The notes under the pieces are model-generated. The model saw nothing but the letters and a program-made list of their open reading frames with translations, did not search any database and was not told where the DNA came from. The position numbers and the translations under genes are program-made. Positions 8,669-13,105 of a DNA stretch of 20,815 nucleotides are shown one piece after another; the first letter of the stretch is position 1; the number at the start of each line of letters is the position of its first letter. The stretch comes from a virus. The stretch spans positions 1-20,815 of the IMG/VR virus record IMGVR_UViG_3300030090_001966; one strand, written 5' to 3'.

Positions 8669-9032
8669 AGAGTATAACCTTGAGCCAAACCACACGTCAA
8701 GTAGTGTTTAATATTAATAGCGATTCCATGTGGAAAGGATATAAATAGTTCCCATGTCCATACTATAATTATTTAAATAATCATACTCAGTATTTAACAT
8801 AGCCCTCAATCCACCTTTGCGATACAGTTTAGCTCTAGTATTTTTGTAAGAAATATCCTCAATAAATGAATATTTTAATGCTCTAATATATTCCTCTGCT
8901 TGTTGTTTGCTTGTAAATTTTTTAATCATAATAGCCCTCAATAGTTATATATATTAATATGTTCGTTGAACTCCCTTCATTGTCGCTTATCTTCCGCAAC
9001 AAAGCTAGGGGTGTTATTTAATAGCCCTCAAT
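8650..9032 (-). repeat. Four dispersed copies of ATTGAGGGCTA
   Basis: Identical 11-base copies, read leftward, end at 8650-8660, 8800-8810, 8932-8942 and 9022-9032. Three extend to ATTGAGGGCTAT. The copy at 8932 provides the GAGGG ribosome site of the 71-aa gene, and the copy at 8650 is one arm of a terminator hairpin. Neither use explains the others, so this may be a recurring mobile or regulatory motif. Confidence 0.6.
8714..8929 (-). CDS. 71-aa small leftward gene of unknown function
   Basis: The sequence is MIKKFTSKQQAEEYIRALKY, SFIEDISYKNTRAKLYRKGG, LRAMLNTEYDYLNNYSMDMG and TIYILSTWNRY. The start at 8929 is chosen because GAGGG lies five bases upstream; an in-frame TTG at 8941 is weaker. 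The first helix followed by strands (GTIYILSTWNRY) looks like a compact alpha/beta mini-protein. It stands alone in an otherwise non-coding region, with a terminator after it, so it is likely its own transcript. No family recognised. Confidence 0.55.
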   Translation of the reverse strand: MIKKFTSKQQAEEYIRALKYSFIEDISYKNTRAKLYRKGGLRAMLNTEYDYLNNYSMDMGTIYILSTWNRY

Positions 9033-9041
9033 CGCAACTTT

Positions 9042-9047
9042 ATTATA
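9042..9047 (-). promoter_or_regulatory. Leftward -10 element beside the AAAGGTACA array
   Basis: A perfect TATAAT, read leftward, lies 17 bases from the first AAAGGTACA copy. No TTGACA is present at -35; the array copy occupies that position. An activator binding the repeats could substitute for the -35. It would drive the 71-aa gene. Confidence 0.35.
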
Positions 9048-9064
9048 ATGCTCAATAATAAAAA

Positions 9065-9173
9065 AAAGGTACAATTTAAAAAGGTACATCAAAAAAATTC
9101 AAAGGTACAAAAGATAAAAAGGTACAATGATTAAAAGGTACATAAAAATTTAAAGGTACATTGAAAAGGTACA
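9065..9173. repeat. Seven-copy AAAGGTACA iteron-like array
   Basis: Exact copies of AAAGGTACA start at 9065, 9080, 9101, 9118, 9134, 9152 and 9165, all in one orientation. Start-to-start distances are 15, 21, 17, 16, 18 and 13 bases, with AT-rich spacers of unrelated sequence. This is unlike a CRISPR (repeat too short) and unlike a simple tandem duplication (spacers differ). It is the pattern of iterons at a replication origin or of multiple operator sites. It lies in the divergent region between leftward replication genes and rightward genes. The same motif recurs as an inverted pair at 10202-10238. Confidence 0.8.
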
Positions 9174-9185
9174 TAGTTTTTAATG

Positions 9186-9201
9186 CTGTATAAATTTACA
9201 G
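9186..9201. promoter_or_regulatory. LexA-box-like palindrome with adjacent TTGACA
   Basis: CTGTATAAATTTACAG has the CTGT-N8-ACAG form of the gammaproteobacterial SOS box and an AT-rich centre. Three bases later comes TTGACA (9204-9209), a consensus -35 element, though no good -10 follows at 17 bases. A phage- or host-encoded repressor binding here would cover the promoter. Alphaproteobacterial LexA uses a different (GTTC-N7-GTTC) site, so a match to host LexA depends on the host. Confidence 0.35.
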
Positions 9202-9536
9202 TATTGACAAGGTTTCTAAAATGTGCATTGGTTGGAAAAATAAATTTGCATTTAGTTTTTTCTTCTGGCAATATATATATAGATTTTTGATATTGATAAC
9301 TCTTAAATTAGTCTTACGTTAAAAATCTAATCCGATAGGGATTTAAAAAAATGGCTCATTAGCCCTAGTATGAAACGAGGTTGTACTTAAAAATCAAAAG
9401 GCGGAGAGAGGGAAAAGCCCGATTTAAACGGGATTAAACTCAGAGCAAAATAAAACATAGTTTGCAAAGCTAGGGATAACTAGGATAAATAAAAACTGTA
9501 AAACTTAAATTTTAATTAAATCAATAGAGGTAAATT
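9202..9536. other. Non-coding AT-rich region before the 63-aa gene
   Basis: No convincing ORF is present. It contains an ATATATATA tract near 9271, a CCCG/CGGG inverted repeat (around 9418-9432), and a weak promoter candidate TTTGCA (9461-9466) with GATAAA 17 bases on (9484-9489), which could serve the two rightward genes that follow. CAAAGCTAGGG near 9465 repeats the sequence near 8999. Confidence 0.4.
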
Positions 9537-9728
9537 ATGATTCATATAATTAATAAAAAAGGTTATGTCTATGAGTGTTCTTCGTTCCGAGAAGCAATGC
9601 AAATAATTTTGAGGTTGTCATTCAAGAATGAAAAACCAAAAGGCATAATTTCCGATAATATGAAGAATAAAAGAGGGCTAGAGCGTTATTGTGATAGTCT
9701 TCACGATTCTATAAACAACGAGGTATAA
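9537..9728 (+). CDS. 63-aa rightward early protein
   Basis: The sequence is MIHIINKKGYVYECSSFREA, MQIILRLSFKNEKPKGIISD and NMKNKRGLERYCDSLHDSIN. AGAGG lies six bases before the ATG. An N-terminal strand pair followed by helices is likely. It is cotranscribed with the next gene (two bases between stop and start). Function unknown; position right after the repeat array and palindrome would suit a small regulator, but no HTH signature is evident. Confidence 0.65.
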   Translation: MIHIINKKGYVYECSSFREAMQIILRLSFKNEKPKGIISDNMKNKRGLERYCDSLHDSINNEV

Positions 9729-10201: not shown

Positions 10202-10238
10202 TGTACCTTTCAAGTTCTTCGAAGTTCTAAAAGGTACA
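10202..10238. promoter_or_regulatory. Inverted pair of the AAAGGTACA motif
   Basis: TGTACCTTT (10202-10210) and AAAGGTACA (10230-10238) are exact inverted copies of the 9-base array motif. They are centred within one base of the palindrome CTTCGAAG (10217-10224). The distance between arms matches about two helical turns. It suggests that the factor binding the array also binds here as a dimer. Confidence 0.6.
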
Positions 10239-10337
10239 AATACAGGGCTTTCGAGCTTGTGAAGTCTTACAGGTGGGCAGGAGACCACCCCCCCTCCCCC
10301 ATATATCTATAGCATACTCATACAAAATTACAGAAAC

Positions 10338-10382
10338 CGGGCATTAACCAGTTAGACTTATCTGGTTTACAAAATCGCCCCG
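10338..10382. repeat. Compound inverted repeat
   Basis: AACCAG (10346-10351) pairs with CTGGTT (10362-10367), and CGGGC (10338-10342) pairs with GCCCCG (10377-10382) with one bulge. It resembles a fragment of tRNA-like folding but lacks a complete cloverleaf. An RNA or protein site is possible. Confidence 0.35.
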
Positions 10383-10980: not shown

Positions 10981-11155
10981 AAAAGAAGGTAAAAGATACG
11001 CAGGTCCTAACATACTTGCCGAGACTTGGGAGTTAGCTGAAGAGGCTGCTACCTTCAACGGTTTAATTTTAATTGGTGAGTTTCAAGAAATCGTTGCTGA
11101 TGGTACAGTAATGCACTATTTAGAACGAGATATAGAACCTCGAACCCTGCACTAA
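10955..11155 (+). CDS. 66-aa conserved phage protein of unknown function
   Basis: The sequence is MKIFLTEVEKEGKRYAGPNI, LAETWELAEEAATFNGLILI, GEFQEIVADGTVMHYLERDI. A pattern of strand, helix (ETWELAEEAA) and strand is common to short phage proteins located between small terminase and downstream genes. It overlaps the end of terS by 26 bases and the IscU start by one base (TAATG). GGAAGATT ahead of the ATG is a modest ribosome site. Function unknown. Confidence 0.75.
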   Translation: MKIFLTEVEKEGKRYAGPNILAETWELAEEAATFNGLILIGEFQEIVADGTVMHYLERDIEPRTLH

Positions 11156-11577
11156 TGGCATACTCAAGACAAGTAGTAGATAGGTTTGAAAGTGTTTTAA
11201 ATAACCCTGACAAACATGCGGTTGGTAGGTTTGACCCTAATGACCCAAATGTAGCTACCGGTTTAACCGGAGCACCTGCTTGTGGCGATGTTATGAAGTT
11301 GCAGTTAAAGTTAAATGGTGATATTATCGAAGATGTAAAGTTTAAAACTTATGGTTGTGGTTCGGCAATAGCCTCTAGCACTATGTTTGTTGATATGTTA
11401 AAAGGTAAAACAATTACTGAAGCTAAACAAATAAAAGATGCAGATATAGCTAAAGCCTTAGATTTACCTCCAATAAAACTACATTGTAGTGTTTTAGCCG
11501 AAGAAAGTATTTCCAAAGCAATAGCAGATTGGGAAGCAAAAGTAAAACATAGACAACATAATCAATATGGCAACTAA
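11155..11577 (+). CDS. iscU: IscU-type iron-sulfur cluster scaffold protein
   Basis: IscU assembles [2Fe-2S] and [4Fe-4S] clusters from iron and IscS-derived sulfur and passes them to apoproteins with HscA/HscB. All key features are present in this 140-aa protein: N-terminal MAYSRQVVDRFE, C43-G-D45 in APACGDVMKLQ, C68 in YGCGSAIASS, and H110-C111 in LPPIKLHCSVLAEE; LPPIK (104-108) matches the LPPVK chaperone motif with Val to Ile. E. coli IscU has equivalents C37, D39, C63, H105, C106. Differences are a six-residue insertion near residues 13-21 and an extended C-terminus (HRQHNQYGN). The gene starts at TAATG coupling with the 66-aa gene and is inside the terminase region, so it is phage-encoded cargo, not host flank. 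No IscS, ErpA or HscA gene is visible, so it would depend on host partners. Confidence 0.95.
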   Translation: MAYSRQVVDRFESVLNNPDKHAVGRFDPNDPNVATGLTGAPACGDVMKLQLKLNGDIIEDVKFKTYGCGSAIASSTMFVDMLKGKTITEAKQIKDADIAKALDLPPIKLHCSVLAEESISKAIADWEAKVKHRQHNQYGN

Positions 11578-12039: not shown

Positions 12040-12339
12040 ATGGCTGACCCTAAAAAAGGTACAGGTAAAAAACCTAAAGGTTCTGGTAGACGTTTATATA
12101 CTGACGAGAATCCTAAAGATACCGTTAGTATTAAATATAAAACACCTGCAGATGCTCGAGCAACTGTAGCTAAAGTAAAAAGAATTAAAAAACCTTTTGC
12201 TCGTAAGATACAAATATTAACAGTTTTAGAACAACGTGCTAAAGTAGCTGGTAAAAAAGAACAAGCTATGATAGCTAAAAAAGGTAAAGAAGCAATTAGA
12301 AAAAAACATGGCACTAAAAAAAAGTCAAAAAAGTCTTAG
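12040..12339 (+). CDS. 99-aa conserved basic phage protein
   Basis: The N-terminus MADPKKGTGKKPKGSGRRLY is followed by TDENPKDTVSIKYKTPADAR, then a helical, Lys-rich ATVAKVKRIKKPFARKIQIL and a terminal KKHGTKKKSKKS. 'GTGKKPKGSGRRLYTDENP' recalls a protein I know from marine metagenomic phages next to terminase. About one third of residues are Lys or Arg. A packaged-DNA or virion-associated role is inference. It overlaps the next basic gene by 32 bases. Confidence 0.85.
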   Translation: MADPKKGTGKKPKGSGRRLYTDENPKDTVSIKYKTPADARATVAKVKRIKKPFARKIQILTVLEQRAKVAGKKEQAMIAKKGKEAIRKKHGTKKKSKKS

Positions 12340-12970: not shown

Positions 12971-13105
12971 CTCGTTCAGCTCGTAAGAGCCGGAAGTAGA
13001 TTAGAAAGGAAAACCTCCTTGCAAAAGGGTAAGCTAAGTACCAGTAATGGGAACAGAGACCGACATCTATCGAAGGAACGCAATGGGTGATGTACAAAAG
13101 TACAT
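12971..13105 (+). ncRNA. Candidate structured RNA with GNRA tetraloops
   Basis: This non-coding segment holds several hairpins: GCTC-GTAA-GAGC (12979-12990) extended by TTC/GAA; CCTT-GCAA-AAGG (13017-13028); GGTA/TACC (13028-13031 with 13039-13042, alternative to the previous); and ATGTAC-AAAA-GTACAT (13090-13105) followed by an AT tract. Two GNRA tetraloops in succession are unlikely by chance in an AT-rich intergenic stretch. All frames carry stops. It precedes the YRG-repeat mini-protein by about 30 bases, so it may be a leader, a processing element or an independent RNA. It is not a tRNA and too short for a group I intron. Confidence 0.5.

Follow-up and report, generated by a model that had tools for sequence, protein, structure and literature searches.

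A conserved array of seven identical 9-bp sites in a marine podovirus-like phage, a candidate origin element that alternates with DnaA-box rows among relatives

Overall organization of the locus

The window, by which we mean the whole stretch of DNA analysed, comprises an entire IMG/VR record (20,815 bases), which is itself a fragment of a larger genome. It is from an uncultured marine podovirus-like phage that is a distant relative of the HTVC115P/HMO-2011-type phages. The nearest annotated phages are the Pelagibacter phages HTVC115P, HTVC103P, and HTVC104P (terL 65–67% identical). The leftward arm encodes the exonuclease part of DNA polymerase, a T7-type primase-helicase, and a Gp2.5-like SSB, and the rightward arm encodes terminase, portal, scaffold, and capsid proteins together with an IscU-like protein. 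An array of seven copies of the 9-mer AAAGGTACA sits between the leftward early arm and the rightward late genes (Table 1). Its position in non-coding DNA between divergent genes, the leftward o8714 and the rightward o9537, is as an earlier note on this DNA had described.

The cumulative GC skew has its minimum at the divergent array region, both in the window and in longer relatives; it tracks gene direction, and an origin and divergent transcription are therefore not separable by skew. When 80-bp segments of the window are ranked by stability, 9039–9118, 9270–9349, and 9481–9560 are in the lowest 12, and the least stable of all, which starts at 9481, is located ~300 bp from the array. The anchor motif TTGAGGGC is on the early side of the array in the window and precedes the array in most other relatives.

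Table 1. Features of the array locus (positions in the window)
Feature	Position	Strand	Remark
First leftward early gene (o8714 family), 71 aa	8717–8929	−	Adjoins the array in all near-complete relatives
TTGAGGGC anchor motif	9024–9031	−	Lies by the array or DnaA boxes of almost every relative
Low-stability, AT-rich DNA that overlaps the array	9039–9118		Possible unwinding region
Array of seven exact AAAGGTACA sites	9065–9173	+	Kept at the same place in relatives
Palindrome CTGTATAAATTTACAG, LexA/SOS-box type	9186–9201	+	Right of the last repeat, overlaps the rightward −35 (TTTACA)
Small gene o9537, 63 aa	9537–9728	+	Early-strand homologue in other lineages; orientation reversed in that of the window
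Small gene o9731, 97 aa	9731–10024	+	Homologous to the o37398 family; inverted here
Outlying AAAGGTACA site	10202–10210	−	~340 bp before terS; DnaA boxes at the equivalent place in L109/L105
Second outlying AAAGGTACA site	10230–10238	+	Inverted relative to 10202; also corresponds to DnaA boxes in L105/L109

Structure of the array and its flanks

The seven copies are exact, share one orientation, and start at positions 9065, 9080, 9101, 9118, 9134, 9152, and 9165 of the + strand, which bears out the earlier note. The number is far above chance. Among 500 second-order Markov sequences of the window's length, in which 9-mers with at least three G/C were counted, the highest copy number of any such 9-mer within a span of this size was two in 495 sequences, three in three, and one in two. 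The sites are asymmetric, and the spacers vary in length and sequence while the 9-mer stays exact. The near-helical spacing that the note had also claimed did not hold up: the start-to-start distances are 15, 21, 17, 16, 18, and 13 bp, and the phase coherence at 10.5–11 bp (0.36–0.40) is about that of random positions. Helical phasing was rejected on these values.

The same note had placed the array at the −35 position of a leftward TATAAT. The TATAAT (9042–9047) is indeed 17 bp from the first copy, so that the −35 geometry fits, but the remainder of the claim was not supported. The hexamer at the −35 place is ACCTTT, with no match to TTGACA, and a promoter scan of the window listed no promoter at this TATAAT. 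In L015/L042, whose terL is 99% identical to that of the window, the array is kept and the TATAAT is lost. A sigma-70 promoter with the array at its −35 position was therefore rejected.

The palindrome CTGTATAAATTTACAG, examined as CTGT-N8-ACAG, is exact in L014, L015, L009, and L032, has one mismatch in L034, and has a similar counterpart in L109/L107. The motif (at most one mismatch) is not enriched in the window. The palindrome accompanies the inverted o9537 gene wherever this can be checked (the window, L015/L042, L009, and L032); therefore, it may control the inverted genes beside it through the host SOS response. Both o9537 and o9731 are rightward in the window and on the early strand in most relatives, which represents a local inversion beside the array. 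Genes of the o37398 family adjoin the array or DnaA boxes in other lineages, and the fold prediction for o9731 was poor.

Conservation of the array among relatives

The array recurs at the same place in many relatives with terL identities of 60–99%. The earlier note had named absence from close relatives as the observation that would speak against it; every relative with a terL identity of at least 87% in which the site is adequately covered has the array. Scanning for three spaced copies yielded 32 viral contigs, and most of those with irregular spacing are from this clade and carry the array by an o8714-family gene or upstream of terS. This first set of carriers was chosen by pattern, and most of the loci are metagenomic fragments. 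L014 and L015 keep the spacers as well as the copies, and there are about six copies each in L009, L032, and L034. Another architecture, which combines three copies of one orientation with an inverted fourth, is found in L011, L012, L023, L029, L035, L046, and others. A search for the F-F-R arrangement gave 17 contigs, 16 of them from this clade. The exception, L276, is a phage without detectable kinship to the clade that has seven AAGGTACA sites in mixed orientation at 12090–12245. In L056 (5853–6011), the array is expanded to a strict 11-bp tandem of AAGGTACA(A/G)TT, the period of the DnaA-box rows in relatives.

The orientation of the array relative to the early gene flips between lineages, and its distance to the first conserved early gene varies widely, from about 100 to about 630 bp. 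A sigma-70-like promoter (TTGACA/TAAAAT-like) of the first early gene follows the array in many relatives.

DnaA-box rows at the homologous position

The key comparison loci were fetched by terminase, independently of the array. In L068, L074, L075, and L091 (terL 82–84%), the homologous place is occupied by six DnaA-type boxes at 10–11 bp steps, for example TTATCCACAGGTTATACATACTTATCTACA, and a row of this length was reached by none of 200 shuffles. The corresponding rows of L070, L082, and L096 consist of five, four, and four DnaA boxes, respectively. Composite loci also occur: six DnaA boxes are located beside three AAGGTACA copies in L283, L286, L290, L293, L302, and L336 (L297 is similar), and five beside four copies in L209 and L343. 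L023 is also a hybrid of DnaA boxes and repeats. L287, L294, and L298 are locally very similar to L283/L302 but lack the AAGGTACA part. Next to one and the same flank, GCCCTCCAC...GCC, L298/L294 have a DnaA row, while L292/L280 have AAGGTACA units in that interval. In the window, no DnaA box within one mismatch was found in the 3 kb before terS.

Of 54 non-redundant loci, AAGGTACA occurs alone in 12, a DnaA row alone in 10, both in seven, and neither in 25, where the threshold for a DnaA row is a scoring devised for this analysis. In loci with at least three AAGGTACA copies, fewer copies go with a longer DnaA row (rho −0.64, p 0.003, uncorrected for kinship). On the well supported branches of the terL tree, at least two gains or losses are needed for each label. 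These arrangements suggest that DnaA-box arrays and AAAGGTACA arrays at homologous positions are exchangeable modules, which supports a role in an origin.

The array place of L057, L062, and L073 is taken by TGTCACA-like units in 11-bp rows. Such 11-bp rows, resembling TGTCACATAa or TTTCACATA, are found there in L044, L048, L057, L062, L073, and L109, either by themselves or adjoining AAAGGTACA or DnaA boxes. In appearance, they are similar to the direct-repeat sites of OmpR-type response regulators.

Search for a binding protein

Pfam scans of the early and most late proteins of a 51.6-kb relative recognised no Rep, HTH protein, integrase, or RNA polymerase. For G001 (early and most late proteins) and for G002, G004, and the window (early proteins), no Rep or winged-helix match above the cut-off was obtained. 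A Rep of an unrecognised family is possible. The o8714 product, whose gene adjoins the array, was modeled by AlphaFold as a β-α-β-β-β-β fold (pLDDT 90) that is not HTH and has no convincing PDB match. It was rejected as the array binder because this confidently predicted fold has no DNA-binding match.

Gene presence was compared across both clades, and no family was universal to array carriers and absent from non-carriers. In a closer set, a family of 67–117 aa (L349:11205–11450, L350:13384–13734, L351:11691–11891, and L167:11715–12101) occurs in L018 as well as in five array carriers, and three close non-carriers lack it. It has only a sub-threshold WYL match, and it was not found in the window's clade or in the 5.5 kb of L285. 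Within that sub-clade, this family is a candidate for a regulator or for the array binder. When 84,980 species genomes were scanned for the word, only minisatellite-like repeats were obtained; therefore, a host operator or host oriC carrying the word was rejected, although the host may be outside this set.

A possible role in replication initiation

To our knowledge, the start of replication has not been established in the abundant marine podoviruses without their own RNA polymerase. A literature search on the replication origins of these phages found nothing, and a term search of the paper comparing HMO-2011-type phages revealed no treatment of replication origins or promoters. From the sequence comparisons, we consider that the array is probably the part of the phage's replication origin to which an initiator binds and that it is interchangeable with a DnaA-box array. 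The earlier note had left origin and operator side by side. The origin option has gained support because the homologous positions of relatives carry DnaA rows, AAAGGTACA arrays, or both.

The origin would be placed in the gap that separates the divergent early (replication) and late arms. A phage or host protein with sequence specificity would bind in several molecules to the seven asymmetric sites, load onto the adjoining AT-rich DNA, and aid its opening. The presumed strand opening at this locus would admit the phage's replication proteins, namely the T7-type primase-helicase, SSB, and family-A polymerase. Related phages would rely for this on host DnaA bound to a row of DnaA boxes, or on both arrays, and the window's lineage would have retained only the AAAGGTACA array. 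We infer here that the DnaA rows are origins and that the AAAGGTACA rows are equivalent to them. The array locus of the window has no DnaA boxes and is therefore not a DnaA origin, whereas relatives carry such boxes. A more tentative proposal, which we regard as plausible, is that rows for DnaA and for a different, hitherto undescribed initiator have been exchanged as a cassette beside the fixed GC-rich motif, and that the window's lineage has left DnaA dependence entirely. If this exchange is real, the relatives form a natural series of origins (DnaA only, both, and AAAGGTACA only) that would allow the study of how replicons switch initiators. The series also supplies a specific bait with which a new initiator or regulator protein could be sought.

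Several observations count against a role in an origin. By the thresholds used, 25 of the 54 loci have neither array, some of them having a TGTCACA-type row instead; no initiator protein was recognised; the array does not keep one orientation with respect to the early gene; and cultured relatives lack both arrays. Moreover, the array is upstream of a sigma-70-like early promoter in many relatives, and DnaA can also act on promoters. Multi-site operators are common, and they resemble the window's array in being clustered, identical short sites close to an early promoter. The main alternative is that a transcription factor of the host or phage switches the early, and perhaps also the rightward, promoter from this array, as DnaA would in relatives. 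We regard this explanation as doubtful but retain it because the early promoter comes after the array in many relatives; a LexA-type box between the array and the rightward promoter is also in its favor. However, the variable distance and flipping orientation of the array, the loss of the neighboring TATAAT in L015/L042, and the exchange with DnaA rows do not fit an operator well. At least six DnaA boxes with an 11-bp period would seem to exceed the need of a promoter. Furthermore, no repressor gene was found, and no HTH regulator was recognised in the 51.6-kb relative.

The sites might instead bind a host factor that modulates the origin without being its initiator, the window's lineage opening its DNA by other means. 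CtrA is one factor known to act near DnaA boxes in oriC. MtrA boxes between DnaA boxes in bacterial oriC provide a further precedent (PMC4285127). The hybrid loci hold both arrays, and the lack of any phage protein that is universal to carriers in both clades and absent from non-carriers is consistent with a host factor. However, the array would then modulate an unseen element in the window, which has no DnaA-box cluster, and the genome scan revealed no host operator cluster within its set; we consider this improbable. Binding of the terminase small subunit (a pac/cos region) is highly improbable. The two outlying copies do adjoin the strongly conserved non-coding element before terS (described below), but the array is 1.4 kb from terS and tracks DnaA-box modules instead. 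TerS is 74–83% identical in relatives without any AAAGGTACA array, and its site should not vanish where the protein is conserved. Almost no credence can be given to chance or a decaying minisatellite. The same word does occur in true minisatellites elsewhere, and L056 shows a tandem expansion; however, an exact 9-mer with differing spacers, conserved at one place across terL identities of 60–99%, refutes this explanation.

Comparison with known systems

Iteron units are mostly 17–22 bp, iteron plasmids as a rule have DnaA boxes adjoining their iterons, and the R6K origin has seven repeats (PMC4980987). Like the iteron plasmid origins (RK2 oriV, F, P1, and R6K), the array consists of multiple direct repeats in a single intergenic region with AT-rich DNA nearby, and hybrid relatives, unlike the window itself, also have DnaA boxes beside the repeats. 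However, the unit in the window is conserved over 9 bp only, its spacing is irregular (13–21 bp), no Rep gene was recognised here, and some relatives mix orientations. Because the array lacks a regular 17–22 bp unit and a recognisable Rep gene nearby, it was not filed as an iteron origin, although it would work in a similar manner.

DnaA-box clusters are the core of bacterial origins (PMC4285127). A cluster of this kind, which would mark a DnaA-dependent origin, is present in L068, L075, and L298 and absent from the window. The loci of relatives resemble bacterial oriC in having four to six same-strand boxes with an 11-bp period by a GC-rich motif and AT-rich DNA. They differ in belonging to a phage genome with its own T7-type replisome. 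The lambda ori is a phage origin with repeated sites for its initiator, O. In contrast to lambda ori, the array is not inside an initiator gene, its sites are not palindromic, and no O homologue was found. The HMO-2011-type/HTVC115P-like marine podoviruses share terL (62–67%) and primase (47% to HTVC115P) with the window, and HTVC115P has the same two-arm layout. However, the cultured HTVC104P, HTVC115P, and HTVC033P were examined and have neither the AAAGGTACA array nor a DnaA row.

Other features of the late arm

A non-coding element at 10275–10352 (GGTGGGCAGGAG...ATATATCTATAG...ATTAACCAG) is strongly conserved ~200–270 bp before terS in six relatives, and it is possibly a packaging or terminus site. 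A glutamine riboswitch (Rfam RF01739; 46.7 bits, E 1.5e-7) was detected at 12971–13084 on the + strand of the late arm. The gene for the IscU/NifU-like Fe-S scaffold protein (11155–11577) is also present in many relatives, and its product shows at most about 58% identity to anything in the annotated phage collection.
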